In this document: piece by piece, positions 1-20,212 of the stretch
How positions within the stretch are numbered: the first letter of the stretch is position 1
How the letters are laid out: every line of letters begins with the position of its first letter
Virus record (IMG/VR): IMGVR_UViG_3300042319_000601
Location: 1-26,093 of that record
DNA: 26,093 bases
Reading direction: 5' to 3' (one strand)
From: a virus
The notes under the pieces: model-generated
The model's input: only the letters and a program-made list of their open reading frames with translations
Told to the model about the DNA's origin: nothing
Databases searched by the model: none
Translations under genes and position numbers: made by a program

Positions 1-15
1 CCCCTTGCCCGGTCT

Positions 16-352
16 ATCGGTGCCCCCATCGGTGCCCCTTAGGTGCCGCCCCCATCGGTGCCCCCCTCCCATCCCCTGCCCGGTGCCCCATCGGTGCCCC
101 CATCGGTGCCCTAGCGGTGCCCCCCCTTGGGTCGCGGCTTAACAGATCACCCATCGCAAGGGAAACAAGGTCAATGTTTCTGACCTATCGAAAAACCATG
201 CCCGGTGCCCCCCTTTCGGTGCCCCATCGGTGCCCCCTAGGCCTGCAATCGGATTAGATATGCCATTGCCACCCCTTGTTTCCTTGGGGTTTTCCGCAGG
301 TAGTGACGCGAAACGGTGACGCGGTGCCCCATAAGGTGCCCCATCGGTGCCC
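16..352. repeat. Clustered short direct repeats, core GGTGCCCC
   Basis: About fourteen copies of GGTGCC, mostly in the form ATCGGTGCCCC, fall in three clusters at 16-123, 203-237 and 321-352. Copies begin at about 19, 31, 42, 57, 82, 93, 105, 116, then 204, 218, 229, then 323, 335, 346. Most neighbours are 11-12 bases apart, close to one DNA turn. All copies point the same way; on the coding strand they read GGGGCACCGAT. T7 carries arrays of a 7-base repeat beside its terminal repeats, and this array occupies the comparable place. Binding by terminase or another end-processing factor is inference. Confidence 0.85.
161..283. repeat. Inverted repeat GGAAACAAGG / CCTTGTTTCC
   Basis: GGAAACAAGG at 161-170 is matched by its exact reverse complement CCTTGTTTCC at 274-283. 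The arms lie about 100 bases apart and enclose the middle cluster of GGTGCC repeats. The arms are short and could be chance, but they frame part of the presumed packaging end. Confidence 0.4.
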
Positions 353-691
353 GTTGCGGTGCTTTGGAGGGGGGCACGGGGGGACTGCGCGGGCCGCAGA
401 TACTATCTCTGGGTCTCACAAATGTGCGGTGAAATATTCCGTGACCCCTGAGTGGGTTGACCCTCGGGGACGAGTGGGCGTCAGCCCGCGAGGAGCCGAG
501 GGTGCCCCTGCGGTTGGGGGAGACCCACAACTGGTCGAACAGTCTGAGGCTAGACGGTGTGGGTGCAGCAGGAAGATGGGGTCTTGGGCGGCGTGACCGC
601 CGTCGTCTCCCACCCTCACTGCCACTTCTACTCCATTCTGAGGCTATACCCTCAGGGTCACCTTTAAGGGGAACCTTACATATCACTCTCT

Positions 692-709
692 CTATGGTGT
701 GGGTTAATT
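692..709 (-). promoter_or_regulatory. Phage RNA polymerase promoter, phiOR-like
   Basis: The minus strand reads AATTAACCCACACCATAG followed by AGAGAG. The same 18 bases recur exactly at 20212-20195. The T3 promoter core AATTAACCCTCACTAAAG matches at 15 of 18 positions, so initiation is expected at the last G (692). The site lies past the last gene and fires into the repeat region and genome end, which is where T7 has phiOR. T7 phiOR is linked to replication and concatemer processing rather than to expressing a gene, so a similar role is plausible here. Confidence 0.85.
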
Positions 710-726
710 GTAACCCATTGATTTCC

Positions 727-996
727 CTACACCTGCCCCGAAGGGGAGGAGAGGGTCTCGACTGCGGCCCCAGCCGCCTTCCTGAACACCTGATAGTCCC
801 CGATATGCAGCCCCTCAGGGGTGAACACTTGGGGCACAGTGTCGAACCCGGCGTCCCTCAGGGCAGCCCTCTGGGCACCGTCTCGGTGAATGGAGTGGAA
901 CGTGAAAGAGAACCCGAGGAGGGTCAGGAGGGTCTTGAGGTTTGTGCAGGCAGGACAGCCATCGGCGTAGCCCCAGACGTGTAGGTGGGTGGTCAT
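727..996 (-). CDS. Glutaredoxin/thioredoxin-fold protein
   Basis: This is an 89-residue redox protein of glutaredoxin size. It has a CPAC active-site pair at residues 14-17 after a beta strand, the TVPQVF strand with the cis-proline at about 53-58, and the GDY turn near 66-68. The start at 996 is chosen because AAGGAACCCACC lies directly before that ATG; a longer frame from 1032 runs through a terminator hairpin. Such proteins reduce disulfides, for example in ribonucleotide reductase. It is the last gene before the genome end, with a terminator upstream and a phage promoter downstream, so it looks like an accessory addition. A link to the DNA polymerase processivity site is speculative. Confidence 0.85.
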   Translation of the reverse strand: MTTHLHVWGYADGCPACTNLKTLLTLLGFSFTFHSIHRDGAQRAALRDAGFDTVPQVFTPEGLHIGDYQVFRKAAGAAVETLSSPSGQV

Positions 997-1010
997 GGTG
1001 GGTTCCTTGG

Positions 1011-1050
1011 AAAAAAGCCCCACACGGGCCATAGGAGGGCCGTGCAGGGC
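1011..1050 (-). terminator. Intrinsic terminator after the large terminase gene
   Basis: On the minus strand GCCCTGCACGGCC (1050-1038) pairs with GGCCCGTGTGGGGC (1030-1017) around a 7-base loop. The stem has about 13 pairs with two G-T wobbles and one bulged C. Six T residues (1016-1011) follow at once. It lies between the terminase stop (1076) and the glutaredoxin start (996), so the glutaredoxin gene needs read-through or an unseen promoter. Confidence 0.8.
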
Positions 1051-1075
1051 GTGTTAGGTGTTGGGGGTGGTGGGA

Positions 1076-2797
1076 CTACCAGCGACCCTGAGAGGACCGT
1101 GGGCGCGTGAATTTGCCCCGTCCTGCGGCACCTCCTTTGACCTCCTTGATGAAGGCCTTGTAGGTGTCGTCGCGGAGCTTCTCTTGGTGCCGCTCGAAGG
1201 CGTTTGCCGTGTCCTGCGCCATCTGCTCTGCCCAATACGCCACAGCCATTGAGAGGGCGTCCAGACGGTCGTCATGGGGGAGGCAGCCCCTATCCCGCGT
1301 GAGGCGGGTAAGCTGCCAGAACAGGCTGTATGAGGCCTCGGCGGCGGTCTCGTAGTCCCGGTTGATCACCGTCTGGCACATGACCAATCGGTGCTGCTGC
1401 ATGACAGGCTCCAGAGTGTCCGCGATGCGGGCCTCCTTCTGCTTCGAGTGGTTCACCTCTTCGACCTGACAGCGATACTGGCCGCGCTTGAGGGCCGACT
1501 GCAGGAGCTTGGCGAACATGCCGCCGCCGAAGTTGCCTTCCACGAGGATGACGTTGACCTTCTGCGCCTTGGCGATGTTGACCAGCTTATCCAAGGTGGC
1601 GTCCTCATAGCCACCGTCGAGGCCCCCGGCTGCGGTGCAGAAGATCGTCCCCGCGAGGTGCTTGACCACGGCGTAGGCAGTCTCGTCCTTGCCCCGGCCC
1701 GAGGGGTCGATGGCCATCACGCTGCCGCTGTAGGGCTGGAACTCCTTGGAGATGAACATCGGGCGGAAGAACTTGTCGCCGGGGAGGCCGCAGATGTGGA
1801 CCCCTTCGACCGAATACTCCTGAGACCCGGCCCACGCCAACTGCATCGGCCCCATGTGAGGGTCGAGCGGCATCGTGATCAGGTCCGACAGCTTCAAGGG
1901 GAACCTGTTGGCATCGTTCAGGGCAGTGTTCAGCATGAACTGGAGGGCGAAGCCTGCCAGCCCATACGACCGGGCGCGCTCTGCAAGGTCCACATCGGTG
2001 AACCGCTTGGGGTCCGTCGAGCTTCCTGCAGGTTGCCCCTTCTCGATCAGCCGGAAGATGTAGGGGGCGAGTTGCCCTTGGTAGACCGAGGGGTCATCAG
2101 GGATACGGGCGGGCCAGATGCGGATGGTGTAGCCCCGCTCAGGGAGCTTGGCATACATCGTCATGGCAGACTGCGGGGTGCCCAGATAGGTGATGATACC
2201 GTTGGGCTTGAGGACCGCGTCGAACTCCTTGACGCTCTCGGAGAGCTTCTCACGGGCACCCTCGGTGGCAGAGTTGTTGAGGGACTCCACGTCGTCAGCC
2301 AGAATTTCATCCGCACGGGAACCCGTGATCTGGCCGAAGATGCCGACGGACTTCATCGACGGGTCTTTCGAGGGGCGCGAGGGGCCGACATCGAAGAACA
2401 CGTTGGAGTCCCGCTGGCCGTCACCGGGCTGCAGGTGGTGCAGGAGGGGCATCTCTGCGATCAGCCGCTTGACGAACCGGGAGAAGTCGTCGGCGGTGTT
2501 CTTGGTCGCGGAGACAACCATGATCTTCCACTCGGGATTGCAGTAGAAGCGCCAGCACACGAAGGCGGCATAGACCCACGTCTTGCCCACACCCCGGAAG
2601 GCTTGGACCATCTTCCGGCGCGGGCCGTGCTGCATGAAGTGAGCGATGTCGTATTGGACCGGGGTGGGTTCCGGCAGGCCGAGGTGCTTCCAGACGAGGA
2701 ACAGGAACGCCCTAAAGTCCTTCCGAAGTGTATCCTCGACGGTCCTTTCCTTGGCCCTCCGCTGTTGGCGGGGGAGGTGATCGCTTTCAGGTATCAT
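1076..2797 (-). CDS. terL: Terminase large subunit (T7 gp19-like)
   Basis: This is the packaging motor ATPase and nuclease that cuts the DNA concatemer and drives genome into the prohead. The 573 residues closely follow T7 gp19 (586). The Walker A motif FRGVGKT lies at about 67-73, the Walker B region SRADEILADDVE at 160-171, and the LGTPQ coupling motif at 205-209. The RNase H-like nuclease residues are D364 in AIDPSGRGKDET, E420 in VEGNFGGGMF and the aspartates of HDDRLDAL (508-515). The start at 2797 is preferred because GCGGAA precedes it and it overlaps the end of the HNH gene by 11 bases. A frame from 2848 would add 17 residues of no known match. Confidence 0.97.
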   Translation of the reverse strand: MIPESDHLPRQQRRAKERTVEDTLRKDFRAFLFLVWKHLGLPEPTPVQYDIAHFMQHGPRRKMVQAFRGVGKTWVYAAFVCWRFYCNPEWKIMVVSATKNTADDFSRFVKRLIAEMPLLHHLQPGDGQRDSNVFFDVGPSRPSKDPSMKSVGIFGQITGSRADEILADDVESLNNSATEGAREKLSESVKEFDAVLKPNGIITYLGTPQSAMTMYAKLPERGYTIRIWPARIPDDPSVYQGQLAPYIFRLIEKGQPAGSSTDPKRFTDVDLAERARSYGLAGFALQFMLNTALNDANRFPLKLSDLITMPLDPHMGPMQLAWAGSQEYSVEGVHICGLPGDKFFRPMFISKEFQPYSGSVMAIDPSGRGKDETAYAVVKHLAGTIFCTAAGGLDGGYEDATLDKLVNIAKAQKVNVILVEGNFGGGMFAKLLQSALKRGQYRCQVEEVNHSKQKEARIADTLEPVMQQHRLVMCQTVINRDYETAAEASYSLFWQLTRLTRDRGCLPHDDRLDALSMAVAYWAEQMAQDTANAFERHQEKLRDDTYKAFIKEVKGGAAGRGKFTRPRSSQGRW

Positions 2798-3176
2798 GGG
2801 AATGTTCCGCATGTGGATGCGATAGGGCCAGCGAAAGCCGGACCACATCTGCGTGGGTGTTGTTGTTCTTTGCGAGGTTGTAGATACTGACCACGACTTG
2901 TGTGTTCTCTGGTGTGTATCCCTTCCCCGGCTCGATCTGATCTAAGGAGGGGACGAAGGGGCGTGTGCGCCCGGAACCTCGCTGAAAGTCGAAGGGAAGG
3001 CCTGAGACCTGACAGACACCCGCCTCGACGATCTGGTCTACCCAATCTTGGGTGATTGAGAAGGGGAGACCTGCGGATGCTGATCGCTGACGGGCATTAT
3101 TCCAAAGTCGGTAAGTGAAACGGGAGGGGCGCTCATGGGGCGGGATGCCGTATTCGGCGCTTCTCGGTGTTGGCAT
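2787..3176 (-). CDS. HNH homing-type endonuclease, copy 1
   Basis: The 129-residue protein carries a compact HNH-like core: CQVSGLPFD at about 55-63, then SLDQIEPGKGYTPENTQVV at 77-95, ending IYNLAKNNN. This SLD-GY-N layout is typical of small phage HNH nucleases. An AGGA ribosome binding site precedes the start, and the gene ends inside the beginning of terL. It sits between small and large terminase, where T7 encodes its spanins (18.5/18.7), and directly after a terminator. A second protein with the same core follows the DNA polymerase gene (22450-21995). Free-standing homing endonucleases often settle next to conserved phage genes. Target and activity are unknown. Confidence 0.85.
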   Translation of the reverse strand: MPTPRSAEYGIPPHERPSRFTYRLWNNARQRSASAGLPFSITQDWVDQIVEAGVCQVSGLPFDFQRGSGRTRPFVPSLDQIEPGKGYTPENTQVVVSIYNLAKNNNTHADVVRLSLALSHPHAEHSHDT

Positions 3177-3191
3177 GGGGTGTCCTGAATG

Positions 3192-3217
3192 AAAAAACCC
3201 CCGCCGAAGCGAGGGTT
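3192..3217 (-). terminator. Intrinsic terminator after the small terminase gene
   Basis: On the minus strand AACCCTCGC pairs with GCGGGGGTT around a TTCG tetraloop, giving nine pairs with one wobble and a C(UUCG)G closing. The T-run is at 3197-3192. It starts 25 bases past the small terminase stop and ends just before the HNH ribosome binding site. HNH and terL are therefore downstream of a strong-looking stop signal. Confidence 0.88.
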
Positions 3218-3241
3218 ATGGGGTAGTCTTGAGAGATCAGA

Positions 3242-3529
3242 TCAGTTGTAGGTGGGCCGATCTTCGTGTTCTTCCTCGTCAAAGACGGGGAGATCGGATA
3301 CGGCACCTGCCGCGTTCTTGAGGCGGTCACTGTCGGGTTCTGCCGTCACACCGTTGTCCTTGAGGAACTTGATGGCGGCGGCGATGTAGGCGGCGGGGGC
3401 AGGCATACGGACGGCATTGCCTTCCTTATCAATGGCTTCCACCCCGTTCCTGATGATGTCCGCGAGGGTCTCGGCGGTGATCAGGTGGAGTTGGTCCATC
3501 AGGTCGTCTTTAGCGCGCGACATGGTCAC
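3242..3529 (-). CDS. terS: Terminase small subunit (T7 gp18-like)
   Basis: This 95-residue protein has the size and position of T7 gp18, the DNA-recognition partner of the large terminase. The segment MPAPAAYIAAAIKFLKDNGV at about 42-61 is a common signature of small terminases in T7-like phages, and the C-terminus is acidic (FDEEEHED). The GTG at 3529 overlaps the stop of the preceding gene as GTGA, which suggests coupled translation. An ATG two codons later (3523) is an equally possible start. Confidence 0.88.
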   Translation of the reverse strand: MTMSRAKDDLMDQLHLITAETLADIIRNGVEAIDKEGNAVRMPAPAAYIAAAIKFLKDNGVTAEPDSDRLKNAAGAVSDLPVFDEEEHEDRPTYN

Positions 3530-3807
3530 ATAACTCCCATGAGCTTGAGGATGGTGGGGAACGTCGCCTGACCGAAGAACCCGGCTGCCAGACCCACGCC
3601 GATGGCGATGGCCCCGATGCGGAGCTTGAGGTCTTCGAGGGTCTTGAGGCGCTGTTCGATGTTGGAGAAGCGGGCGTCTGAGGCGTCCTCGACCGCGTTG
3701 ATGCGGGCGTCGTAGGCCGTCAGGGTCTTGAGGATGTTCTTCACGTCCCCCTTCACCTCACCGAGGATGAGTAGGACGGAAGCCTCTTGTGGGCTGGGGT
3801 GTGTCAT
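3526..3807 (-). CDS. Coiled-coil plus single-membrane-helix protein, possible holin or lysis protein
   Basis: The 93-residue protein has a charged helical N-terminal half likely to form a coiled coil (about 18-60, including NIEQRLKTLEDLKLR). A hydrophobic helix rich in Gly and Ala follows at about 63-88. It occupies the T7 gene 17.5 (holin) position between tail fibre and small terminase. The layout resembles XhlA-type membrane-associated lysis proteins. AGGAAACCCCA precedes the ATG, and the gene ends overlapping terS. A better holin match is encoded at 17079-16876, so this one may be a holin, an antiholin or another membrane partner. Confidence 0.7.
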   Translation of the reverse strand: MTHPSPQEASVLLILGEVKGDVKNILKTLTAYDARINAVEDASDARFSNIEQRLKTLEDLKLRIGAIAIGVGLAAGFFGQATFPTILKLMGVM

Positions 3808-3824
3808 TGGGGTTTCCTGAGGGT

Positions 3825-3850
3825 GCCCCTCCGGGGTTAACCGAAGGGGC
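3825..3850 (-). other. GC-rich hairpin without U-tract
   Basis: GCCCCTTCGG and CCGGAGGGGC on the minus strand form a 10-pair stem around a 6-base loop, in the 56-base gap between two genes. No T-run follows, so it is not a classical terminator. It may be an RNA processing or mRNA-protecting structure. Confidence 0.6.
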
Positions 3851-3863
3851 CTCTGTTGTGGGG

Positions 3864-4373
3864 TCAGATCGCGGCGTAGACCCGGAAGAACTCGTCAAGG
3901 TCAGCCTCGGTCGCCTTCCGCATGGATGCCATGAGGAGCAGCAACTGGTTGGACCTGTGGATTTCCGAGGGGCGAAGCGCGCGGGCGCGGGCACGAAGGC
4001 GGGGCATGGAGCCATCCGGGGCGGTGGCCGGGAGGGTGTTGATCGCGGCCTCCACGGCAGCCGGAAGGGAGTTGGCGGAAAGCCATCCCTCTGCCTCGGC
4101 GGGGGTAATCCACTTCTGTTCCACCAATCCCACCACGAGTTGTGAGAAGGAGATGACCTCAGGCACAGGGTTACTCTCTTGAGGTGCGACAACGATAGGT
4201 CCCGTCGCGCTCCACAGCCAATCGGACGCGGGCGGCAGATCGTCGCTGTCGATGATGCGGTGCGGGGTGTCGGCAGGAACCACGGCGGCGGCTACTTCGG
4301 CAATGTCGGCATCAGGCGCGGGGGACACGATGACGATTTTGCCGAGGGGGTTGGGGTAGATGATGATTTGCAT
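3864..4373 (-). CDS. Tail-fibre-linked protein of unknown function
   Basis: This 169-residue protein begins MQIIIYPNPLGKIVIVSPAP and has the segment DTPHRIIDSDDLPPASDW at about 50-67. That pattern recurs in small proteins encoded next to phage tail fibre genes, some annotated as tail assembly chaperones. The C-terminal third is helical and charged (SMRKATEADLDEFFRVYAAI). The start at 4373 follows GAGGACACACCC, ten bases after the tail fibre stop; a longer frame into the fibre gene is rejected. A role in fibre assembly is inferred from position only. Confidence 0.75.
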   Translation of the reverse strand: MQIIIYPNPLGKIVIVSPAPDADIAEVAAAVVPADTPHRIIDSDDLPPASDWLWSATGPIVVAPQESNPVPEVISFSQLVVGLVEQKWITPAEAEGWLSANSLPAAVEAAINTLPATAPDGSMPRLRARARALRPSEIHRSNQLLLLMASMRKATEADLDEFFRVYAAI

Positions 4374-4383
4374 GGGTGTGTCC

Positions 4384-5652
4384 TCAGCGGAAAATGGCGA
4401 CGTTGACGAATTGCGCGTCCTGACCAACTCCGGTCGCACTGTCCCCGGTTCTGATGCGAACAGACCCAGCAAGGGGAGCATATCCGTTGCCCGCTGTCAG
4501 GATGCCCGCCGTTGCCGCGCCCGGCCCATAATTCGCAAAGCCCGCCACCGCATAATTCGCATCCGGCATCGCAGTGGAGAAATTCACAGTATAATCCCCC
4601 ACGCCATTCCGCACGACCGACGACACGTTGCCCGATGCGCGGATGGAGCCGTTGGTGCCGTTGAAGTTCACCCATGCGCGGCAGTCGAATTTGGGGAGCA
4701 GGGTGGCAGGCGCACCCTGATGGGCGGTAAACTGCGCCCCGTCGCTGTTCACCTGATAGGCCGCGAACCTGCGATCCCCATCAGAGCCGCCAGTGCGGTT
4801 CGCCAGAAGCCTGACAGCTGTTCCCCAAAAACCCGTGTCCTGCACATGCAGACCGCCGACAATCGCGCCGCGAATGTTAGCATCGAATGCGACAGCAGCT
4901 TGGCCACTGCCGTCATTCCGCAACTGCAAGCCGCCCGCAAACCCGCCGTCTTGAGTGGCTTGGGTGGACAGGAATGTAGGGTTTGTGGATTGCGCCCCGA
5001 TTGCCAACCGCGCCGCCGCCGCATCAGCAGCCGTGAACACCGCCGCGCCGACTGTGGTAGCGCCTAGCGCAGTCCGAAACGCGGGCTTATTGGGGATGTC
5101 CGCGCCGTTCTGTGCTTTCTCAAGCCGACCAGAGACCGCCGTAGAAGCTGCGTTTCCGGCATCATTCGCAAAGGCTTGAGCTTGGTTTCTGGCTGTAATC
5201 GTTTGTGCTAGAATGGAAGTTCCGCTCGTTTCGGCCCACTCCTTGGTGACAGCGTCGCGGGAGTTGGTGGGGTTACCCAGATCAGCCAAGCGGCGGAAGC
5301 CTGCGGAGTATGCCCCGTTCTGGTCGATCAGGAGCGAACCGCTGGCGGCGTCGAGAGCCTCTGCGGCGATGTGGATGGCCTGCAGTTGGGCCACGTTCAG
5401 GTCACCTGCGAGAAGCACAGAGCCGTCCACGAAGGTCACCAGACGGGCACGGTCGGTGTCCCGACGGATGATGATCACTTTGTCCACGGCGGGGGCCGGG
5501 ATGATCTTGATGGTTTGGGGGGTGTGGAAGGTGAACGGCACTTCGGCCCCATCGACCAGCACCTTGACGAACTCCTTGCGGAGATAGTCGAAGCTGAACG
5601 TGAAGTCGGTCTGTGCGCCGTTACCAACGTAGGTGGCGATGGTGGTGGACAT
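4384..5652 (-). CDS. Tail fibre protein (T7 gp17-like N-terminus)
   Basis: This 422-residue protein is the likely receptor-binding fibre. Residues 1 to about 120 match the T7 gp17 N-terminal virion-attachment domain: DFTFSFDYLRKEFVKVLVDG, RRDTDRARLVTFVDGSVL, DLNVAQLQAIHIAAEALD. A helical stretch (about 140-200) follows, then a beta-rich distal part with FNGTNGSIRASGNVSSVVR and DYTVNFSTAMPDANYAV, common at fibre tips. It is shorter than T7 gp17 (553). GAAGGAGAACTC precedes the ATG, below a dedicated promoter at 5716-5700. The codons change sharply near residue 140, from GAC/TTC/ACC-type to AAT/TAT/TTT/GCG-type, which suggests a swapped receptor-binding module. Confidence 0.93.
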   Translation of the reverse strand: MSTTIATYVGNGAQTDFTFSFDYLRKEFVKVLVDGAEVPFTFHTPQTIKIIPAPAVDKVIIIRRDTDRARLVTFVDGSVLLAGDLNVAQLQAIHIAAEALDAASGSLLIDQNGAYSAGFRRLADLGNPTNSRDAVTKEWAETSGTSILAQTITARNQAQAFANDAGNAASTAVSGRLEKAQNGADIPNKPAFRTALGATTVGAAVFTAADAAAARLAIGAQSTNPTFLSTQATQDGGFAGGLQLRNDGSGQAAVAFDANIRGAIVGGLHVQDTGFWGTAVRLLANRTGGSDGDRRFAAYQVNSDGAQFTAHQGAPATLLPKFDCRAWVNFNGTNGSIRASGNVSSVVRNGVGDYTVNFSTAMPDANYAVAGFANYGPGAATAGILTAGNGYAPLAGSVRIRTGDSATGVGQDAQFVNVAIFR

Positions 5653-5664
5653 GAGTTCTCCTTC

Positions 5665-5688
5665 GACGGCCCCCGAGAGGGGACCGCC
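5665..5688 (-). other. GC-rich hairpin in the tail fibre leader
   Basis: GGCGGTCCCC pairs with GGGGGCCGTC around TCTC on the minus strand, about 10 pairs with two wobbles. It lies between the promoter at 5716-5700 and the fibre ribosome binding site and has no T-run. It would form near the 5' end of the fibre transcript, as a stabiliser or processing site. Confidence 0.6.
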
Positions 5689-5699
5689 GTTGTTGGGTT

Positions 5700-5716
5700 C
5701 TAGGGTGTGGGTTATT
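5700..5716 (-). promoter_or_regulatory. Phage RNA polymerase promoter, phi17-like
   Basis: The minus strand reads AATAACCCACACCCTAG, a variant of the AATTAACCCACACCATAG core found exactly at two other sites. One T is missing in the upstream part and one A is replaced by C near the start point. It overlaps the stop codon of the gp16-type gene and lies about 50 bases upstream of the tail fibre ATG, matching the location of T7 phi17. Its departures from the core suggest a weaker promoter. Confidence 0.72.
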
Positions 5717-8700
5717 GGCTGAACCGGGGCAGGCTACCCACGGCCATTGCCAAGCCGTTCCTGATCACGAAGGCGTTCTGGAACGGGATGATGTTGATGG
5801 CCGACCGGGCATCTTGCTGGCTGAAATCGTAGTCCTCATTGACCATAGCCTTGAGGGTGCCCTTCACGGCGCGCGAGGCGTTGTCCAACAGGTCAACGGA
5901 AGGGTTCCCGAAGATGCCCGTGGAGAGGTCCGTGGTGCGATAGGCGAAGATCGGCTCGTCCGTGAACGGAGCCGCGCCCATGTCGATCAGCATCGGGGCG
6001 AAGGTCGAGAACCCGGCGCGCTGGAAGGATGCTTTGCCGATGCTCTCTGCAGACAGGCGTTCCTCCAGCCACTGCTCTTGGTCTTGGCGACCCACGCTGT
6101 TGACGTAGGTCTGGCCGACGTAGAACAGGCCACCGAAGAACATGGATGCGAGGAAGGACGAGAAGGTCTCCCAATCCCGCTGACGCACCCCGCCGAGAAC
6201 CTGCTTGGTATAGGCTCCCAGCATGAAGCTACGGAACTGGCCGATGGTCTTCCCCATCTCTTTCGACATGAAGGCAGGCATCGTCCCGGCGCTGTTCTCC
6301 TGCACCGACCGCCGCGACCAGCGGCTCAAGCCGTTGATGAAGGCGTTCTTCGCGTCGATGTCATCCCACATCTGGATGTCGAGGTGCTTGACCTTCTTCC
6401 CAATCAGGCCGTCCCGCGTTGCCGCGTGTTTCCTGATCTGCTCGTTGATGCGCTCGGCCATGTCGGAGTTGATGCCCAAGGCCTCATACCGCTTGGTGTT
6501 GATGCCTTGCCGGGAGATGAGGCCCTTTTGCCCGAAGGCTTCATCCACGAACCGCTGGGTCAGCACCCGCGCGTTGAGGCGCTGGAGCATACGGTTGATG
6601 TGGGTCATCCCCGAGACAGTGGCGACGGCCTGCTTGGCATTGTTCAGGGTGTAGTCGAACACCTGAGTGCGGGTTGCCTTGCCCCCGCGAACAGCCGAGG
6701 AAACGGCGCTGCCGTCGTCCAAGCGGACATGCGGGCTATGTGCCAGCACATCGAGACCCACCGACATGATGGACTCCAGCTCATCCGTCAGGGCATCGCT
6801 CATGTTCCCCTTCTTGGCCTCAAGGACGAAGTCCCTGAACCGGGGCATGTGGTAGATCATCCCCCGCATCCCCCCGTTTCCGAGGGCCATGCCGAGTTCC
6901 GACAACTGTGCCACCCCAAGCTGACCCATCACGCGCACGAAGTTCCAGCTACGGACGCGCCGCAGGGTGTTGTTCCATGCCGTTTCGGGTTCCTGAGGGA
7001 TGCCCTTGAGTGCCCGGTAGAGGATGTCGAGGTTGCGAAGCTCGGCGTTCACCACTTCGGACGGGCGCTTGTCCGCGTCGGTGATGAGGCGCTTCATCCT
7101 CTCGTAGCTCGGAGCGTAAAGCTCGTCGATTTCCCCGTCATCGTTGGGCAGGCGGAGGTCGCGGAAGACCCGCTGATAGGCTGCCTCACCCATGAGGCTG
7201 TCAACGTAGCTCCCGAAGAGGGACTCCACGTCGTTCTCAAGGAAGTCTTCGAGGGCCATCCCGGTCTTCGGGTCGCGCCACGTCTCGTCGAGGATGACCC
7301 GGTGACGGGCATTGCCGATCTTCCCGGTGTTCGGGTCTTTCGGCTTCGAGAGTTTGGCCACGATGTCCGAGGCGCGCGAGGTGCTGATGCCGCTGTCGAG
7401 CAGCATCTCATGCAGGGCGTCGAGGTTGTAGCCTGCCAGCCCGCGCTCCACGTCCAGCGCCTGATACTTGCGGGCGCGGATGGAGGTGACGAGTGCCTTC
7501 GCCAGATCGAGGGCGTCGGTGCCGTCGAGGTCTTCCAGCGCAGAGGTCTTACCGGGGTTGGCCAGCTTGAACTTGCGGGTGCCTTCGACCATCGAGTCGG
7601 CAATCATCCTGTAGAGGGGACCAGCCCGGTCGGCCCCAAGGGCACCGCCGGAATAGGAGTTGATGAAGTCATCCAGAGCTTGGATGTTCCACTGGCGTGA
7701 CAGGTAGGTGTCGTTGGTGTTCAGTTCATCGAACCCCTTGATGCCATACTCCTTCCCCTTCTGGATGAGACCCGCGTATTCCTGACGGAGACGGGCCGCG
7801 ACCTTCTGAACATGCACGTTGTCGGAGGCATCCTCAGGGCGGCGAACCGCCTTGCCGACGAGGGTGTTGAACTCGGCGCGAACCGCCGGGTCGAACCACC
7901 GCCGGGTGCCCTTCCCGCTCTCCTTCGCCCACGCTTTGAAGGCGGGGTTGTAGTCGCGGTAGAACCGGGTCGTGATGTTCTTCACTTCGCGGGTCTTGAT
8001 TTCCATCGCGGAGGTGACGGTGACCACACCGGGGCGGTTGCCCACGGCGTCTTCGTCGAAGCGTTCAGCCACCCACCGCATGATCGGGTTCTCCGACTGC
8101 TTGAGGCGACCGACAACGTCGATGCGGGCCTTGCCATACATAGAGGTCGGGGCGTCACCCACGATGTCCAGCGCCTTGGAGACAGCCTCAGGGGCCACAT
8201 CCATCGGCACCGCACGGGCAGCACCAACGCTGCCATCAGGGACAGCCGCCGGGGTCACCGGGTCGGTGACCACACCGCCAGACCGCTCCACCTTCCGCAT
8301 GTGATCTGCGAACTCGGCATCGACCGGGGACTTTGCCCATGCACCCGAGGCACCCCCGAGGAGGAACCCTGCGGCTGCACTGTAGGTGAGATCGGACCAT
8401 TCCCCGACGGGGTCTTGGGAGATCAGGTAGCTGTCCAGCGCCACGTTGGTGGCAGCCGCAGCGGTCCCTGCACGAAATGCCCGACTGAGTTTGGTCAGCT
8501 TGGCACCGTAGATGACAGGGGCACCCACGCCCGTGGTCAGGGCAGAGGCAGCGATGGCGACCGGGTCCGCAATGGATGCGCCCATCTGGAGACCCACGCC
8601 CGTCCAGCCCCATTGGGCCAGCCCTTGGTCCCTCTTGAAGGACTCTCGGGTGGACGCAGCGAGGGCCTTTGCGTGGGCCGGGGAGACTGCATCCTCGAAG

Positions 8701-9587
8701 ACCTCATGGTAATCCGAGGGCAGACCTTCGGTGACCTCTTTCCAGAGGCCCTCGTCGAACTGGAACCCCGGCTGCGGGGCGAAGTCTTCCTTGCCCATCT
8801 GGCGCATCGCGTTGCTCAGAACCCACTGCTCATCGACAGCCATCGCGGCGGCTTCCATGAAGCCCACCTCGGGGTTCTCTGCGGCTGCAGCCTGTTCGGC
8901 ATCCTGACGTTCCCAATCGGAAACAGGACGGATACCGGGGACGGTGCCAACCTCAGTGATGCTCATCCCGTTGACCTGAGAGGGGTCTTGGATTTGAGCC
9001 ATGCGGGTCTGTTGAGCGGCCCCTGCGGCAGCGCCGCCCCCTGCCCCACCTGCGACAAAGACCTCGTCGCCGGGGGCGATGTTGGACATGTCGATCATCT
9101 CGCCATTGCGGGCGGCGTTGAGGGCACCGAAGAGGTCCGTGGTGGAGACCGTGGCGGCGTTCAGGCCGTCGCCGTGGTAGGCAGACTTACCGTTGGCCTT
9201 GGGCAGGGCAGCCCATTCGTTGGCGAGGTTGTCCGCGAAGTGCTTGTCGGTGATCTTGCCTTGTTTCCAAGCGTTGTATCCCCGGCCTTCCAGCAGGGCC
9301 ATGCCCATCCTGTCCTGCATCTCGGTGTCGAACATCTCATCCCCGGTGAGGCCCATGCGGCTCACCAAGCCGTTGAAGGTCTTGCGGATGATCTGGTAGC
9401 CGCCGACGGCGGAAGACTTGGACCCGGCGCGGACGCTGGCGTTCTGCCATTCCTGCACTTCGCGGATGGTCATCTGGGTGACGGGTTTCGGGGGAGCGAT
9501 CACGGAGCCACGGAAATAGTCCTCGTAACCGCGTGAGGTCTCAGCCCCCCTGATGAAACTCAGGAGGGCAACAGGTTTATCGGACAT
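5712..9587 (-). CDS. Internal virion protein with murein-degrading domain (T7 gp16-like)
   Basis: This 1291-residue protein matches the size and position of T7 gp16 (1318), which is ejected into the host and helps carry DNA across the envelope. Residues 1 to about 150 look like a lysozyme-like fold: an early glutamate (E16 in FIRGAETSRGY), then SSAVGGYQIIRKTFNGLVSR, EMQDRMGMALLEGRG and NEWAALP. These segments resemble the lambda R lytic transglycosylase (GH104) more than the goose-type domain of T7 gp16. A Gly/Ala-rich hydrophobic region follows at about 335-425. The rest is long and helical with many charged residues. AAGGAACTCCC precedes the ATG. Confidence 0.92.
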   Translation of the reverse strand: MSDKPVALLSFIRGAETSRGYEDYFRGSVIAPPKPVTQMTIREVQEWQNASVRAGSKSSAVGGYQIIRKTFNGLVSRMGLTGDEMFDTEMQDRMGMALLEGRGYNAWKQGKITDKHFADNLANEWAALPKANGKSAYHGDGLNAATVSTTDLFGALNAARNGEMIDMSNIAPGDEVFVAGGAGGGAAAGAAQQTRMAQIQDPSQVNGMSITEVGTVPGIRPVSDWERQDAEQAAAAENPEVGFMEAAAMAVDEQWVLSNAMRQMGKEDFAPQPGFQFDEGLWKEVTEGLPSDYHEVFEDAVSPAHAKALAASTRESFKRDQGLAQWGWTGVGLQMGASIADPVAIAASALTTGVGAPVIYGAKLTKLSRAFRAGTAAAATNVALDSYLISQDPVGEWSDLTYSAAAGFLLGGASGAWAKSPVDAEFADHMRKVERSGGVVTDPVTPAAVPDGSVGAARAVPMDVAPEAVSKALDIVGDAPTSMYGKARIDVVGRLKQSENPIMRWVAERFDEDAVGNRPGVVTVTSAMEIKTREVKNITTRFYRDYNPAFKAWAKESGKGTRRWFDPAVRAEFNTLVGKAVRRPEDASDNVHVQKVAARLRQEYAGLIQKGKEYGIKGFDELNTNDTYLSRQWNIQALDDFINSYSGGALGADRAGPLYRMIADSMVEGTRKFKLANPGKTSALEDLDGTDALDLAKALVTSIRARKYQALDVERGLAGYNLDALHEMLLDSGISTSRASDIVAKLSKPKDPNTGKIGNARHRVILDETWRDPKTGMALEDFLENDVESLFGSYVDSLMGEAAYQRVFRDLRLPNDDGEIDELYAPSYERMKRLITDADKRPSEVVNAELRNLDILYRALKGIPQEPETAWNNTLRRVRSWNFVRVMGQLGVAQLSELGMALGNGGMRGMIYHMPRFRDFVLEAKKGNMSDALTDELESIMSVGLDVLAHSPHVRLDDGSAVSSAVRGGKATRTQVFDYTLNNAKQAVATVSGMTHINRMLQRLNARVLTQRFVDEAFGQKGLISRQGINTKRYEALGINSDMAERINEQIRKHAATRDGLIGKKVKHLDIQMWDDIDAKNAFINGLSRWSRRSVQENSAGTMPAFMSKEMGKTIGQFRSFMLGAYTKQVLGGVRQRDWETFSSFLASMFFGGLFYVGQTYVNSVGRQDQEQWLEERLSAESIGKASFQRAGFSTFAPMLIDMGAAPFTDEPIFAYRTTDLSTGIFGNPSVDLLDNASRAVKGTLKAMVNEDYDFSQQDARSAINIIPFQNAFVIRNGLAMAVGSLPRFSQ

Positions 9588-9596
9588 GGGAGTTCC

Positions 9597-11648
9597 TTAC
9601 TGGTTCTCTTTGATGGCCTCGTTGGTCGCCGCCATTGTCCTCTGAGAGAGGTAGGTGGAGAGTTCCGAGACGTGGATGCGAGGGGCGTTCCGCAGCGGGG
9701 CACCCCACTCATCTGTGAGGGTCCAGTAGTCTTGGCTGCGGTCGGGGACGAAGAAGGCTTCGTCGTAGGTGGGGTTGGCTTTGAGGAAGTCCTCGACGTA
9801 GGCGTTGCTCACGCCTTCGATGTCAGCCGGGACGAAGCGGTCGCGGGTGTTGACGTAGACCCCGTTGACCTTGGTGAAGCTGGTCTCGAAGGCCGAGATG
9901 GCTTTCTCGATGGCTTTGTCCTGAGGGAGGTTGAGGTCCATGTAGATACGGGCCTGCTCCTCAATCGCGGTCTTCACGATCTGCCCGTTGATGGGGTCAG
10001 ACCCGAAGAGGCCACCAGACATGTAGCCGTCCACCGCATCGCTGAACTTGTCCCGGTCCACCGCCGAAGCGAGGCTCGTGCGGCTGGACTTACGGTCGAT
10101 GCTGGCGGATGCAGTCAGGGCTTCCTCGGGGGTCATCCCGCCGATCTCTTCGAGGACTTCGGCATCACGGTAGATCGCCGCCGCCGTCGAGTCCTTGACG
10201 TGCTGGTTCCGCAGGCTTTCAGCCCCGGAGAGTTCACGCCAGAGGCCATAGGCGTTCTGGGCTGCCGGGGGGATGGTGACCTTGCCGTCCTTGTCAGGCT
10301 TCGTCAGGGCACCCGTGAGGGCCAGATACCCGGTGGACAGGCTGTCCTCCCAAGGCTTGTAGGTTTCCCCGATAGCCCAACTGGACATGTGCTGGGCCGC
10401 GACCGCGACCGAGGCATCTTCCCGCGACAGGAGGGCCGTGACCTGTTCGTTGATCACCGTCTCCCGCAGTTCCTTCCCGGTCACCGTTTTGGTGGACCCA
10501 TCGGGCAGCGTGACGGTGGTATCCTGAACAGCAGCCCCCTGCCCCGCGAGGATGAGATCGGTGGCGCTTCCCAGCAGCGTGGTCTTCACGTTGGCCTCGG
10601 TGGCGTCCATGAGACGGCGCTGTTGCGCTGCCTCGTTCTGCATGACGAGGGACTCATACTGGTCGGGAGACATTTGCTTGGTCTCCATGAAGACCCGCAT
10701 CTGTTCCTTGTCACCGTCATCCAGCAGGCCAGCCGCAGCGCGACCCTCAAGGGCAGCCCGAGGTTCCACATTGGCGACCCGGAACTTGTCCCCTGCGGTG
10801 GCCTTACCCTGCTCAAGGAGGGTCTGTGCCTTGACGGCGAAGCCGCCACGCGAGAGGAAGCTGCCGCGCCCATAGGGGTCAGCGTTCAGGACAGCCTCAA
10901 GGGACGCGGTGTCCCCGGTCGAGGCATACTGCTCGGCCAGCCCCAGCAGCGCAGCGTCAGCCTTGTCTTGGTCGATCAGGCCCGCAGCGATGTGCTGAGA
11001 GGTGACCGCCGTGATGGCCGCGTTGACATCCCCGCCGCTTTCGACAGCCGTGGCCACCGCGTCATTGGCGATGGTGTAGAACTGCTCGGCGGCGCGGGTT
11101 TGAAGCTGGCTGTCTTGGAACTCGGCGTGTTGGTTTCGGACGGTGTTGAACACCCCATCCATTCCCTCACGGATGCCCGAGGCGATGAACTCCGACCCAC
11201 CGAAGGCCTCATAGTCCTCCTGCGCGAAGCGGGCGAGGAACTCGTCGATGTTGCCGTTCTGCTTGTCGAACTCGGTGTTGTAGGCCGTGATGATCTGGCG
11301 ACGGCGGTTGGCAGCGTGGGCCATCCCGAATTGCTTCTGGAAGGCTGCACGGAACCACGGGCTTTCGGTGCCCCTCATGGTACCATTGGCGACAGCTTCC
11401 TTGGCCTCGTCGTAGGTCATCCCTTGGATGGTGTCGTAGGCGCGGTTGGCTTCGCGTTCCCGGTAGATGTCCTTGGACTCTTCGAGGAACCCGTTCAGTT
11501 CCGGCTGGATGGCCGACAGGCTGCGGGCCAGAGCCATCGCCCCGGTCTCTTGGACGGTTGCCACAGGCGCGCTGATACCGCTGGGCGCGGCCATCGGGCG
11601 GGGCATCTCACCGCCGCCGAGGTTCATGTTCACAGGGACACGGGCCAT
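9597..11648 (-). CDS. Internal virion protein (T7 gp15-like)
   Basis: This 683-residue, mostly helical protein stands between the gp14-type and gp16-type genes, the place of T7 gp15 (747). In T7, gp15 joins gp14 and gp16 in the internal core and the trans-envelope channel. The sequence shows long amphipathic helices, for example residues 45-75 (FLEESKDIYREREANRAYD), and no membrane segment. I rely on order, size and helical character, since family motifs are weak. AAGGAAACCAC lies before the ATG, and the downstream gene begins ten bases after the stop. Confidence 0.88.
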   Translation of the reverse strand: MARVPVNMNLGGGEMPRPMAAPSGISAPVATVQETGAMALARSLSAIQPELNGFLEESKDIYREREANRAYDTIQGMTYDEAKEAVANGTMRGTESPWFRAAFQKQFGMAHAANRRRQIITAYNTEFDKQNGNIDEFLARFAQEDYEAFGGSEFIASGIREGMDGVFNTVRNQHAEFQDSQLQTRAAEQFYTIANDAVATAVESGGDVNAAITAVTSQHIAAGLIDQDKADAALLGLAEQYASTGDTASLEAVLNADPYGRGSFLSRGGFAVKAQTLLEQGKATAGDKFRVANVEPRAALEGRAAAGLLDDGDKEQMRVFMETKQMSPDQYESLVMQNEAAQQRRLMDATEANVKTTLLGSATDLILAGQGAAVQDTTVTLPDGSTKTVTGKELRETVINEQVTALLSREDASVAVAAQHMSSWAIGETYKPWEDSLSTGYLALTGALTKPDKDGKVTIPPAAQNAYGLWRELSGAESLRNQHVKDSTAAAIYRDAEVLEEIGGMTPEEALTASASIDRKSSRTSLASAVDRDKFSDAVDGYMSGGLFGSDPINGQIVKTAIEEQARIYMDLNLPQDKAIEKAISAFETSFTKVNGVYVNTRDRFVPADIEGVSNAYVEDFLKANPTYDEAFFVPDRSQDYWTLTDEWGAPLRNAPRIHVSELSTYLSQRTMAATNEAIKENQ

Positions 11649-11657
11649 GTGGTTTCC

Positions 11658-12266
11658 TTACTTTCTGGTGCCGAGGTTGGTGGTGCGGTTCACCCTCGCG
11701 GAAGTGCGAAGGTCATCCTTGTAGGCCCCATAGATGCCCGTCCCGGCTTCCAGCAGGGCACCAAACTTGGACGGCTTGGAGACCGAGGGTCGGGTGGCGA
11801 GGGTGTTCTTGAGGGACCGGGCGGTGTTCGCTGCGGTCGTGTCCAGTTCCGCCTTGGTGGCTTCGAGGTTCTGGTTCACGCCATCGCGGATGCGGGCTTC
11901 CTGACCGTAGATGTCAGTCAGCAGGGCGGTGACCGAGAGGCCCCCGATGTTGCCCTCAGAGGCGGATGCCTCGGCGCGGGACACGGTCTTCTTTCGGTCG
12001 AGTGAGGTTTGGAACAGCTTGGCCCCGGCAGCCTCTTTCTCTTGCTGGCCACGACGGGTGATCTGGTCGTAGTCGGAGATTGTCTGCTGGCGGGCGTCTT
12101 CGTTGGCGGCTGCGATGGCGGCGCTTTCCGCCTTGGCCGCTTGGTTCTGGGCCGTGAAGTTCAAGGCGGTGGAGCCAAGGGCAAGGCCAGCTTGCAGCGT
12201 GGAGCCGAGCGACCCCAAGGCCCCGAAGGCAGCCTTCAAGGGTGCGATAAGTGCGGGCAGGCTCAT
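11658..12266 (-). CDS. Internal virion protein (T7 gp14-like)
   Basis: The 202-residue protein matches T7 gp14 (196) in size and place. An N-terminal hydrophobic, Gly/Ala/Leu-rich stretch (about 5-38) precedes a long charged helix (ESAAIAAANEDARQQTISDYDQI). This fits the T7 gp14 role of inserting into the outer membrane during ejection. The segment ASASEGNIGGLSVTALLTDI at about 100-119 is typical of gp14-type proteins. Its ATG overlaps the previous stop as ATGA, so translation is probably coupled to the gp13-like gene. Confidence 0.9.
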   Translation of the reverse strand: MSLPALIAPLKAAFGALGSLGSTLQAGLALGSTALNFTAQNQAAKAESAAIAAANEDARQQTISDYDQITRRGQQEKEAAGAKLFQTSLDRKKTVSRAEASASEGNIGGLSVTALLTDIYGQEARIRDGVNQNLEATKAELDTTAANTARSLKNTLATRPSVSKPSKFGALLEAGTGIYGAYKDDLRTSARVNRTTNLGTRK

Positions 12267-12730
12267 TGGACTATCCTGACGAATTGGTGGAAGGGTGACC
12301 CGCTGCCCCCGTAGTTCTCATCCGTGCGGATGAAGACGAAGCCGAGGCGACGGAGCCAGTTGATCTGTTGGGTGTTGCGGGCGTCCTTGTAGTTGGACAG
12401 CAGGAGGTAACCCTCAGAGAGCCACCTTAGGGCACCCTCTGTGTTCCTGACGGCGAACCGCCAGCGAGGCAGGGCGTGGTGCGAGGCGATGGCCCAGATA
12501 CAGCCCACCTCAGGGGTCTCTCCGGGGGTCACCCCTAGGACAGCCACAGGCCCCCGCTCGGTGTCCCAAGTGGTGAGCTTCTGGCGTATCCCAAGGATGA
12601 AGTCCTCGACGATGACGGGGTCATCCATCCCCATCGTGCGGTATTCCCTGAGGTCTTCGGGGCGCAAGTCCCGCCATACCTTGAGGACATCGCCCCGTTG
12701 GTAAGGGCGGAACTTGTTCCATTGTGTCAT
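12263..12730 (-). CDS. gp13-like protein with acetyltransferase-type fold
   Basis: The 155-residue protein lies between tail tubular B and the gp14-like gene, as T7 gene 13 does. The sequence resembles GNAT-type folds: an initial RPYQRGDVLKVWRDLRPEDL segment, a central beta strand VGCIWAIAS, and a late NTQQINWLRRLGFVFIRTDE segment that parallels the NTSHIRFLKTIGAVF segment of T7 gp13. T7 gp13 is needed to assemble the internal virion structure. Whether this fold still acetylates anything is unknown. The start lies just after the preceding stop. Confidence 0.85.
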   Translation of the reverse strand: MTQWNKFRPYQRGDVLKVWRDLRPEDLREYRTMGMDDPVIVEDFILGIRQKLTTWDTERGPVAVLGVTPGETPEVGCIWAIASHHALPRWRFAVRNTEGALRWLSEGYLLLSNYKDARNTQQINWLRRLGFVFIRTDENYGGSGSPFHQFVRIVQ

Positions 12731-12731
12731 A

Positions 12732-15125
12732 TCAGACCCGTCTTGCTCTGGTGTGGTAGGTTGCCTCCCACTCGGCGCTGGTGAAGGCGCAGGGGAGGAA
12801 GTGATCGCTCTCGATCTCGATGGAGACCCCCTTGTTCCGGCCCATCACCGGGAAGGAGAACCGCCCATCGGACAACTCGACCTGACCCAAGGTGGCGCTG
12901 GAGGCTGCCAGCCGCCGCCCGGTGAACTCCCTGACCGACGGGGTGCGCCCTTCCGGGGTCACCGTCGTCTTGAAGTATCCAGCCCGCGCAAAGTTGACCG
13001 ACATGCGGCGAACCTGCAGGCGTCCGTCGTCCATCGCCAGAACCCCGCCCCCGGTCTCTTGGGTGCGAAGGAACAAGGTCGAGAACTTGTAGTGGCTGCG
13101 GAAGCGGACCCCGGCGAACAGCTTCCGGCCCACCCAATTCCCCGCAAGGAGGACGGTGGTGGGCGACGGGCGGGCCAAGATCGGCGGGACGTGGGTCTCA
13201 GGGAACACCCCATCGCCACCCCCGACGAACACCCAAAGGTCTTCGTTGGTGGCAAACGGCAGGGTGAACGTGGTGGTGTTTGCCGAGGCGTTGAAGGTGC
13301 CCCCCGTGAGGAAGGTGCCGCGATCAACGTGGTAGTAGATCGTTGCCTCGTCATCCAGCGCACCGCTCTCGATGTCCAGCCGCTCGATGTAGGTGCCATC
13401 GTCGCGGGCCACCGTGAGGTAAAGCTCGGACTCGATGAACTCAGCCGACAGCAGGCGATCTTCGGTCGAGAAGTCCCAGCGCGACCATGCCGACTGCAGC
13501 TTGCCGCCTTCGCCATAGTAGAACTTGTAGACCCAGAGGGTGTTCGGGGCGGCTGCGGAGATCGCAACCACCAAGTCCTCGGAGGTCGAGGCAGACAGCC
13601 GGAAGATGTCCTTGGGCACATACCGGGGGCAGTGAGAGGTCACGTCCAGAGCGTCGTTCTGCTCGTTCCCTTCCTCGACGTAATACTCCCGCAGGCCCGT
13701 GAAGGAACCTCGGGGCACCGGGAAGTAGACATACTGGCCCACCCCCACGGGTCGAACCCCAGCCGTGCTTTCAAACTCCGTCGCCTGTGCCACATAGGCG
13801 GTCTCGGCAGAGAGGATGTCCCCAGCTTGCAGCATGAACTGCGCGCCATCGGAGAACAGCAGGAGGCTCTGGTTGAACGGCAGAGCGTGGTTGAGGATGG
13901 ACACCTTGGTGTTCGATACGGCCAGATCGAGGGGGTCAGTGTCGAGGACCGTGGTCGCGGTGTCGCGCCAGAAGTCGAAGAACTCACCCTGCTTGGACAA
14001 GATCACGTTCTCATCGGCCAGCAGCCCGAGGCGGTTGCGGAAGAAGAACACGTCGCTGATCTTCCGCCCGATGAACGAGGCGTTGGGGATGCGCTCCTGA
14101 TCGCCCACCTTTCTGTCAGCCCACTCGGCAGCCCTGAACGTGAACGTACCGTTGGTCTCACGGACGAGGATGTGGGGCATCGTGGTGGGGTTGAACCTGA
14201 ACTGCTCCCCACCCTTGGCGCTCTCTTGCCAGACCCCAGCGGAACCCTCGGACTCGAAGGTGACGTGGTAGTTGTCGAAGTTGGAGGTGTTGTCCCCCAC
14301 GATCTCGACCGAGAACCCATTGGGCGCGTTCCGGGGCAGATCGGTGAACCGCTGCGTCTTGGACACGACGGCCACAATGGCGGTGCCCCCGGTGTCATCC
14401 TGAACGGTGACCGTGAAGGGCGTCGGGCTGGAGGACGTGATGATGACCGTGTCGGCCAGAAGCTGGTAGGTGAACGAGGTGAAGGAACCAGCCCCTTGGG
14501 TGGTGCCTGCGGGCATTGCGATGGTCCCCGAGAGGGTGCCATGAAGGCGATCTGCGATGAACCCCGTGCGGACGGAGTCGATGTGGGCAGGCTGGGAGCC
14601 ATCGGGGGTATCGAAGCCACCCCGGAGGATGCCGTTGATGAACACCCGATACTTCTTCCCGTAGTTCCCGGCGCGCACGTTGATGATGGCGCGGTTCTGG
14701 CGGGCGGGCGTGGTCGCGGCGTCCATCTGGGCGATCTTGTCGCGGTTCACGATGAAGGTGTAGTCGGCCACGGTCACGGCGCGGAAGGAGTTCTTCGCTC
14801 CCCCGGTCAGATATGAGAAGCCGCCCGGTGCATTGACGGTGCGCTGGACCCCGGTCTTGGCGTCATAGACGGTCAGCAGGCCGTCCCTGATGGCGACCAG
14901 ATAGCGTTCCGTCCTGTCACGGTTGATGGTGTGGAGGAAGGCATCATCCCACGAGGAGTTGGACACCTTGGCGAGGAAGCGGGAACCGGGGCGGCGCTTG
15001 AGGCCGTCAGTCACCGAGGACAGGAAGTTGGATTGTTCCTCGGCCTGAGAGGCGAGGCGCAGGGTCGCGGGCTGTTGAGACACCCCGTTGATCAGGTTGG
15101 GGATGGCCGACGTGATGAGGGTCAT
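12732..15125 (-). CDS. Tail tubular protein B / nozzle (T7 gp12-like)
   Basis: This 797-residue protein matches T7 gp12 (794), the nozzle of the short tail. The N-terminus ITSAIPNLINGVSQQPATLRLASQAEEQSNFLSSVTDGL, read in its parts, shows the conserved GVSQQP motif and the ETGL-like KRRPGSRF segment. The body is beta-rich, consistent with a beta-propeller nozzle, with a middle section around KISDVFFFRNRLGLLADENV that is highly conserved in the family. GGAACTGCC lies before the ATG, directly after the tail tubular A stop. Confidence 0.95.
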   Translation of the reverse strand: MTLITSAIPNLINGVSQQPATLRLASQAEEQSNFLSSVTDGLKRRPGSRFLAKVSNSSWDDAFLHTINRDRTERYLVAIRDGLLTVYDAKTGVQRTVNAPGGFSYLTGGAKNSFRAVTVADYTFIVNRDKIAQMDAATTPARQNRAIINVRAGNYGKKYRVFINGILRGGFDTPDGSQPAHIDSVRTGFIADRLHGTLSGTIAMPAGTTQGAGSFTSFTYQLLADTVIITSSSPTPFTVTVQDDTGGTAIVAVVSKTQRFTDLPRNAPNGFSVEIVGDNTSNFDNYHVTFESEGSAGVWQESAKGGEQFRFNPTTMPHILVRETNGTFTFRAAEWADRKVGDQERIPNASFIGRKISDVFFFRNRLGLLADENVILSKQGEFFDFWRDTATTVLDTDPLDLAVSNTKVSILNHALPFNQSLLLFSDGAQFMLQAGDILSAETAYVAQATEFESTAGVRPVGVGQYVYFPVPRGSFTGLREYYVEEGNEQNDALDVTSHCPRYVPKDIFRLSASTSEDLVVAISAAAPNTLWVYKFYYGEGGKLQSAWSRWDFSTEDRLLSAEFIESELYLTVARDDGTYIERLDIESGALDDEATIYYHVDRGTFLTGGTFNASANTTTFTLPFATNEDLWVFVGGGDGVFPETHVPPILARPSPTTVLLAGNWVGRKLFAGVRFRSHYKFSTLFLRTQETGGGVLAMDDGRLQVRRMSVNFARAGYFKTTVTPEGRTPSVREFTGRRLAASSATLGQVELSDGRFSFPVMGRNKGVSIEIESDHFLPCAFTSAEWEATYHTRARRV

Positions 15126-15133
15126 GGCAGTTC

Positions 15134-15721: not shown

Positions 15722-15748
15722 GGGGGAAGTCCTGATGTTTGGGGTATG

Positions 15749-15785
15749 AAAAAAACCCCCCCAAGCGGTTAGGCCTGAGGGGGTT
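15749..15785 (-). terminator. Intrinsic terminator after the capsid gene (Tphi-like)
   Basis: On the minus strand AACCCCC (15785-15779) pairs with GGGGGTT (15760-15754), around a loop containing AGGCCTAACCGC, and seven T residues end the signal (15755-15749). The position, 35 bases past the capsid stop, and the AACCCC...GGGGTTTTTT pattern both match the T7 Tphi terminator after gene 10. It would raise capsid output relative to the tail genes. Confidence 0.92.
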
Positions 15786-15788
15786 GAG

Positions 15789-15811
15789 GAGGTTGGCCCG
15801 AAGGCCACCTC
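15789..15811 (-). other. UUCG hairpin just before the capsid-gene terminator
   Basis: GAGGTGGCC and GGCCAACCTC pair on the minus strand around a TTCG tetraloop, nine pairs with one bulged A. It begins nine bases after the capsid stop and is followed immediately by the terminator hairpin. It may protect the capsid mRNA 3' end or be cut by RNase III. Confidence 0.65.
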
Positions 15812-15819
15812 TAGGTCGA

Positions 15820-16773: not shown

Positions 16774-16880
16774 GGTATTTCCTTTACAGGGATAGTCCCG
16801 ATTGTGGATGCTTTGGGACGTGAGAGGGGGTTCCCCCGGCTCCGTGGAACCGAGGGTGGGCCTAAGGACGCACCTTTAGG
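16774..16880 (-). promoter_or_regulatory. Capsid gene leader with short hairpins
   Basis: This gap of about 100 bases is long for this compact genome. It holds CCTAAAGGTGCGTCCTTAGG (16880-16861), a bulged hairpin across the preceding stop codon, and a GGTTCC/GGAACC inverted pair. T7 has promoter phi10 here, but I could not find the AATTAACCCACACCATAG core. A diverged promoter or an mRNA processing site remains possible. Confidence 0.35.
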
Positions 16881-18053: not shown

Positions 18054-18056
18054 GCG

Positions 18057-20194: not shown

Positions 20195-20212
20195 CTATGG
20201 TGTGGGTTAATT
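20195..20212 (-). promoter_or_regulatory. Phage RNA polymerase promoter, phi6.5-like
   Basis: The minus strand carries AATTAACCCACACCATAG, identical to the site at 709-692 and 15/18 identical to the T3 promoter core. Initiation is expected at the last G (20195), leaving a leader of 16 bases that is mostly ribosome binding site. It opens the head gene block, as T7 phi6.5 does. Confidence 0.9.

Follow-up and report, generated by a model that had tools for sequence, protein, structure and literature searches.

We propose that the large terminase gene (TerL) of a T7-like phage lies behind a terminator, T_L, that is resident in the TerL leader of a whole clade, that read-through of this terminator limits TerL expression, and that an HNH-like nuclease gene entered between the two at a later time. 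We give this reading a probability of about 0.7. It concerns a 26 kb IMG/VR virus record, a fragmentary contig hereafter called the window, which carries a T7-type late region on its minus strand. If it is correct, T7-like phages that lack a local promoter would have a simple way to tune how much terminase motor is made relative to the other late proteins; the junction would also display a clear order of events, with the terminator first and the nuclease second.

A terminator hairpin between the terminase genes

The minus-strand order is portal, capsid, tube proteins, internal virion protein, tail fibre, a small gene, small terminase (TerS), T_L, the HNH-like gene, TerL, a further hairpin and glutaredoxin (Table 1). 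Family searches named four of these, TerS, TerL, the HNH-like gene and glutaredoxin; the other names follow gene order, supplemented for capsid, tube and fibre by resemblance to annotated proteins of LUZ100. The most likely TerL start is 2797 (MIPESDHLP...) and not the longest-ORF start, 2848, because the TerL proteins of near relatives begin with MIPE or MVPE, and this start places the stop codon of the HNH-like gene (2789-2787) within the first TerL codons. Directly behind TerL and its terminator-like hairpin is the glutaredoxin-like gene (727-1032, minus strand; Pfam Glutaredoxin, E 1.2e-9), which is also found in relatives L002, L006, L027 and L031. Repeats of GGGGCACCGATG lie within positions 1-370, close to the probable end of the genome; in the corresponding region behind TerL, relative G001 carries at least nine tandem copies of a 13-base unit, likewise close to the probable genome end.

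Table 1. Positions of genes, hairpins and promoter-like motifs in the window
Feature	Position	Strand	Basis and remarks
Large terminase, TerL	1076..2797	-	Pfam Terminase-T7_RNaseH-like; start inferred from relatives
Small terminase, TerS	3242..3529	-	Pfam DNA_Packaging_2
Small gene before TerS, T7 holin position	3526..3807	-	Identity by position only
HNH/endonuclease-VII-like gene, 129 aa, between T_L and TerL	2787..3176	-	Homologous to LUZ100 gp52 and BB8 p56
Intrinsic terminator T_L	3192..3217	-	9-pair stem, UUCG loop, T6; hairpin scan, sequence read and folding
Strong terminator directly after capsid gene, counterpart of T7 Tphi	15754..15785	-	Hairpin scan
Terminator-like hairpin, imperfect stem, between TerL and glutaredoxin gene	1017..1050	-	Hairpin scan
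Phage-promoter-like motif CAATAACCCACACCCTAG, phi17-like position before tail fibre	5700..5717	-	Inferred promoter
Phage-promoter-like motif AATTAACCCACACCATAG, phiOR-like position after TerL	692..709	-	Inferred promoter
Phage-promoter-like motif AATTAACCCACACCATAG, upstream of portal gene	20195..20212	-	Inferred promoter

On the minus strand, T_L reads AACCCTCGC-TTCG-GCGGGGGTT (3217-3196) followed by TTTTC. Two residues of the T6 run belong to the stem, so that stem, loop and T6 together span 3217-3192. The hairpin is real and is placed exactly as in the preliminary description, which had read nine pairs, a UUCG loop and T6 from the letters and had set them between the small and large terminase genes; the Pfam assignments of both genes bear this out. 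GC pairs make up 6 of the 9, and the hairpin alone folds at -14.0 kcal/mol. For a 47-nt stretch containing it the minimum free energy was -15.4 kcal/mol (z -2.9), and 2 of 200 shuffles folded equally well. T_L thus combines a stable, GC-rich hairpin with a U-run directly behind the stem, the two marks of an intrinsic terminator, and would be expected to stop the phage polymerase.

A loose consensus scan for hairpins over positions 1-20000 had no discriminating power (12 sites, against a shuffle mean of 14.3). A stricter test required -13 kcal/mol or lower and a TTTT tail, with 40 first-order Markov sequences as control. When imperfect stems were allowed, four sites were obtained on the late strand and one on the other strand, compared with a Markov mean of 0.425; with perfect stems only, the late strand retained two, T_L and the hairpin behind the capsid gene (15785-15754), while the other strand had none and the Markov control 0/40. 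An Rfam search of the whole window gave no match at gathering scores.

Conservation of the hairpin in front of TerL

Relatives were collected by TerL and TerS searches, and six contigs hold the junction (TerL 85, 81, 81, 77, 76 and 74% identical to that of the window). A terminator was found 21-29 nt before TerL in all six, and an HNH gene at the TerS-TerL junction in none. With the window, where it stands before the HNH-like gene, the terminator directly precedes TerL in 7/7 distinct clade contigs, which form one clade and are not independent. An eighth contig, L006 (TerL 79%), was left out as it is without a TerL start; inspected by eye, DNA-polymerase-like sequence runs into TerL at about 3900-4420 of this contig, probably an assembly join. 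The hairpin of the nearest relative, L002/L024, is almost identical to T_L. Two others, L003/L025 and L004/L030, carry different inserts between TerS and the terminator that widen the TerS-TerL gap to about 1.5 and 1.4 kb, and in both the terminator adjoins TerL; it therefore stays with TerL. The L025 insert (5312-6730) is a 473-aa gene with no PHROG match at E<=0.01 and, by eye, looks unlike the insert of L030.

Because MAFFT had shifted one hairpin by a base, a script aligned the stems on their loops and counted the pairs. Six hairpins were compared; L028, whose stem is longer, was excluded. Among the stem cells 53 of 54 pair, as against 23-30 of 42-48 when one arm is slid, and 5 of the 9 stem positions have changed on both sides; the hairpins were originally found by folding, so the high pairing is partly built in, and the count establishes no more than sequence differences between the stems. 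That they differ, yet a strong hairpin is held at the same place, supports selection on the hairpin, although it is not proof, and the sequence changes themselves may reflect neutral turnover. From the hairpin end to the start codon the six leave 19-29 nt, and thus little room for a promoter.

The strict scan described below found no terminator at the junctions of L031 (TerL 66%) and L033 (62%), and none was found before TerL in five contigs checked apart (L133, with fewer than 200 readable bases, and L135-L138). TerL therefore does not generally need a terminator in front of it.

The wider survey started from 112 loci, 108 of which had a TerL match; with the window added, 84 were kept after removal of identical copies and of loci that had fewer than 400 bases upstream of TerL or lacked the TerL N-terminus. 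An initial junction scan matched 7/84 loci and 89/1469 random stretches; the window, L005 and L028 escaped it because the scanned interval stopped too soon or at too great a distance. A second scan (-8 kcal/mol or lower, 330 bases before TerL), which could miss hairpins nearer TerS, gave 15/84, seven of them in the clade, against 103/600 random stretches; in LUZ100 its match was an imperfect hairpin inside the nuclease gene. The strict scan ran from the TerS end to TerL in the 83 of 84 loci with a TerS match and required a TTTT tail and -10 kcal/mol or lower. It identified 12 of 83 junctions, namely 7/7 in the clade and 5/76 among other T7-like loci: Limnohabitans phage YIMV22061, L081, Desulfovibrio phage ProddE, L013 and L074, the last with a 4.9 kb gap. 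Since random 390-base stretches of the clade loci matched at 33/480, the junction is not enriched outside the clade. At the looser cut-off, too, non-clade junctions (8/77) had a hairpin no more commonly than the random background (103/600). A terminator before TerL is thus a character of this clade, with few similar cases elsewhere.

Promoter-like motifs and late terminators of known phages

The motif TAACCCACACC, with similar flanks, occurs on the late strand at three sites in the window and five in G001. The scoring matrix was built from these eight sites, so their high scores (26.7-28.2) are expected; sites outside the matrix were found in G002 (26.7) and, at the phi17-like place, in G004 (18.1), and the maximum in shuffled genomes was 14.3 (one shuffle per strand, five genomes). 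The window sites at 5717 and 709 correspond in position to T7 phi17 and phiOR, and we take the motif matches to be putative phage promoters. In the window, the interval from 5700 to 709 holds no match scoring above 12, and a sigma-70 scan found no promoter behind T_L, which upholds the initial remark that no promoter core follows the hairpin, both for sigma-70 and for the derived phage-promoter-like motif. With no motif above threshold in this interval, transcription of the HNH-like gene and TerL probably comes from the phi17-like site by read-through.

A phi17-like site is absent from G001, G002 and G003, and G004 has a weaker one. In G001 and G003, the genes that follow the capsid terminator would for this reason all depend on read-through, and transcription into TerL would have to pass a second terminator as well. 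G003 has a different motif, TTTTCCCCACCTTATGC, in place of the TAACCCACACC of G001, though their TerL proteins are 85 and 81% identical to that of the window, hinting at a change of polymerase specificity. A T7-type RNA polymerase was found in three of the eight records searched (G001, G003 and G008, of about 40 kb each; the other five are shorter), and the same three encode a tyrosine integrase.

Serial terminators in a T7-like late operon have a precedent in LUZ100, a distant relative. The LUZ100 study (PMC10134795) gives 22 termination sites mapped by long-read sequencing of primary transcripts, five of them predicted to be intrinsic. In the phage record (OP329100, 19000-37343) two terminators are marked rho-independent: T16, which follows the capsid gene, and T19, which precedes the tail fibre gene. 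No phage promoter is annotated between phi7, in front of the capsid gene, and phi8, behind TerL, so the arrangement is already documented. A scan of the kind applied to the window recovers T16 and T19, along with one further hairpin for which the record has no terminator.

In T7, the terminator Tphi is a hairpin with a T-run in the late operon, after the major capsid gene, and its read-through feeds the genes behind. T_L resembles Tphi and LUZ100 T16 as a hairpin and T-run inside a late operon, probably with read-through to the genes behind; those two stand after the major capsid gene, a place taken in the window by the separate hairpin at 15785-15754, whereas T_L is an additional hairpin before the HNH-like gene and TerL. 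T19 is closer in being a second late terminator, marked rho-independent, within the promoter-free annotation from phi7 to phi8, but it lies between the genes for internal virion protein D and tail fibre, and LUZ100 has none annotated between TerS and TerL; nor does the T7 annotation place one at that junction. ProddE (MZ666938) does have a terminator annotated at the same junction, although this phage is distant (TerL 50%), its hairpin is weaker (-10.3 kcal/mol), and the terminator is known from annotation, with no sign of mapping. A limited check of the literature brought no described terminator directly before TerL to our notice. The terminator right at TerL is a clade-level variation on the known late-terminator scheme.

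The putative junction nuclease and alternative readings

The HNH-like gene matched PHROG endonuclease families (PHROG 3322, E 3.4e-28), with no Pfam family at E<=0.1 and no NCBIfam endonuclease at E<=1. At the site of the first HNH motif, that of the catalytic histidine, where a DH pair would be expected, four aligned relatives read PSLD[RQ]. A search of solved structures with the protein returned only FhuA-type chains (E 0.58-0.62), and a search of viral contigs with this protein alone returned no relatives. Its best matches among 38 phage-collection records were LUZ100 gp52 and Bordetella phage BB8 p56 (BLASTP, 43% over 119 and 49% over 96 residues); the window's own second HNH-like gene is more distant from it (39% over 72 residues). 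In both phages the homologous gene also lies between TerS and TerL and reaches or overlaps the TerL start; unlike the window, neither has a terminator that we could find in the gap between TerS and the nuclease. The leader of the HNH-like gene in the window, TTTTCATTCA-GGACACCCCATG, resembles the TerL leader of L004, TTTTTCATTCAAGGACACCTAATG. Together with the relatives that have no HNH gene, this likeness suggests insertion of the nuclease gene into the interval from terminator to TerL, and the order looks like terminator first, nuclease gene second. A homing endonuclease would cut nuclease-free relatives and copy itself into them; the observation that bears on this is the presence or absence of the gene at the junction.

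In the mechanism that we favour, the clade consists of T7-like, Autographiviridae-type, probably temperate phages with a resident terminator in the TerL 5' leader. The phage RNA polymerase would initiate at the phi17-like site (5717-5700), or at some point before it, and its transcript would cover tail fibre, the holin-position gene and TerS and mostly end at 3192. The next genes would be carried only on read-through transcripts, which would hold TerL below the genes before it. The nuclease gene, inserted later, would use what appears to be the old TerL leader and share the lowered transcription, and as TerL starts inside its end the two may be translationally coupled. The degree of read-through, the lowered TerL output and the coupling are all predictions from sequence. 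More tentatively, the TerL dose throughout this temperate clade might be set by a dedicated leader terminator, through one read-through step (window) or two (G001, G003), with the nuclease that settled behind it inheriting low expression.

The preliminary description had offered two origins for the arrangement, TerL deliberately kept low by read-through or a terminator that arrived with the HNH gene. Arrival as one mobile unit would suit the adjacency of T_L and the HNH-like gene in the window, but it is very improbable. The check proposed for it, whether relatives lacking the HNH gene also lack the terminator, refutes it: of the relatives that lack the gene, share at least 74% TerL identity and have a readable junction, 6/6 retain a terminator at the same place; conversely, LUZ100 and BB8 carry the homologous junction nuclease without a terminator in the gap before it. 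The read-through suggestion fared better: conservation in the clade, the lack of a promoter-like motif between T_L and TerL and the mapped late terminators of LUZ100 all speak for it indirectly, and the lowering itself is what we infer from them.

Its main rival is that T_L serves chiefly as a lysogenic insulator, blocking stray prophage transcription into TerL while the lytic phage polymerase largely reads through. The tyrosine integrases of G001, G003 and G008 fit such a role, as do the terminator-like hairpins that flank TerL on both sides in the window, G001 and G003, but G008 has its integrase without a terminator before TerL, and we regard insulation as the less likely function. It is improbable, if somewhat less so than joint arrival, that the hairpin chiefly stabilises the tail fibre-TerS messenger, as its 3' end or as a processing structure, and hardly affects TerL. 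Terminator hairpins do generally protect 3' ends; however, a 9-pair stem with a U-run has the form of an intrinsic terminator, for an RNase III site it seems short, and the hairpin adjoins TerL, not TerS, when other genes intervene. Read-through control of TerL is thus probably the best available explanation.

The TerS-TerL junction may be a repeated landing place for one nuclease family in distant T7-like phages (the window, LUZ100 and BB8). A clustering of nuclease genes near terminases is described in PMC10448857, which also gives a hot spot upstream of the terminase in HK97 relatives and mentions that the HK97 HNH protein works with its terminase. By analogy, the HNH-like gene of the window may have a packaging role. 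The second HNH-like gene (21995-22450, minus strand) adjoins the DNA polymerase gene and, unlike the junction gene, is common to G001 and G003 (73 and 70% identical). In L085, a stretch between TerS and TerL (3133-3369) weakly matches the N-terminal part of LUZ100 gp52 (30% over 81 residues) and is perhaps another junction nuclease.
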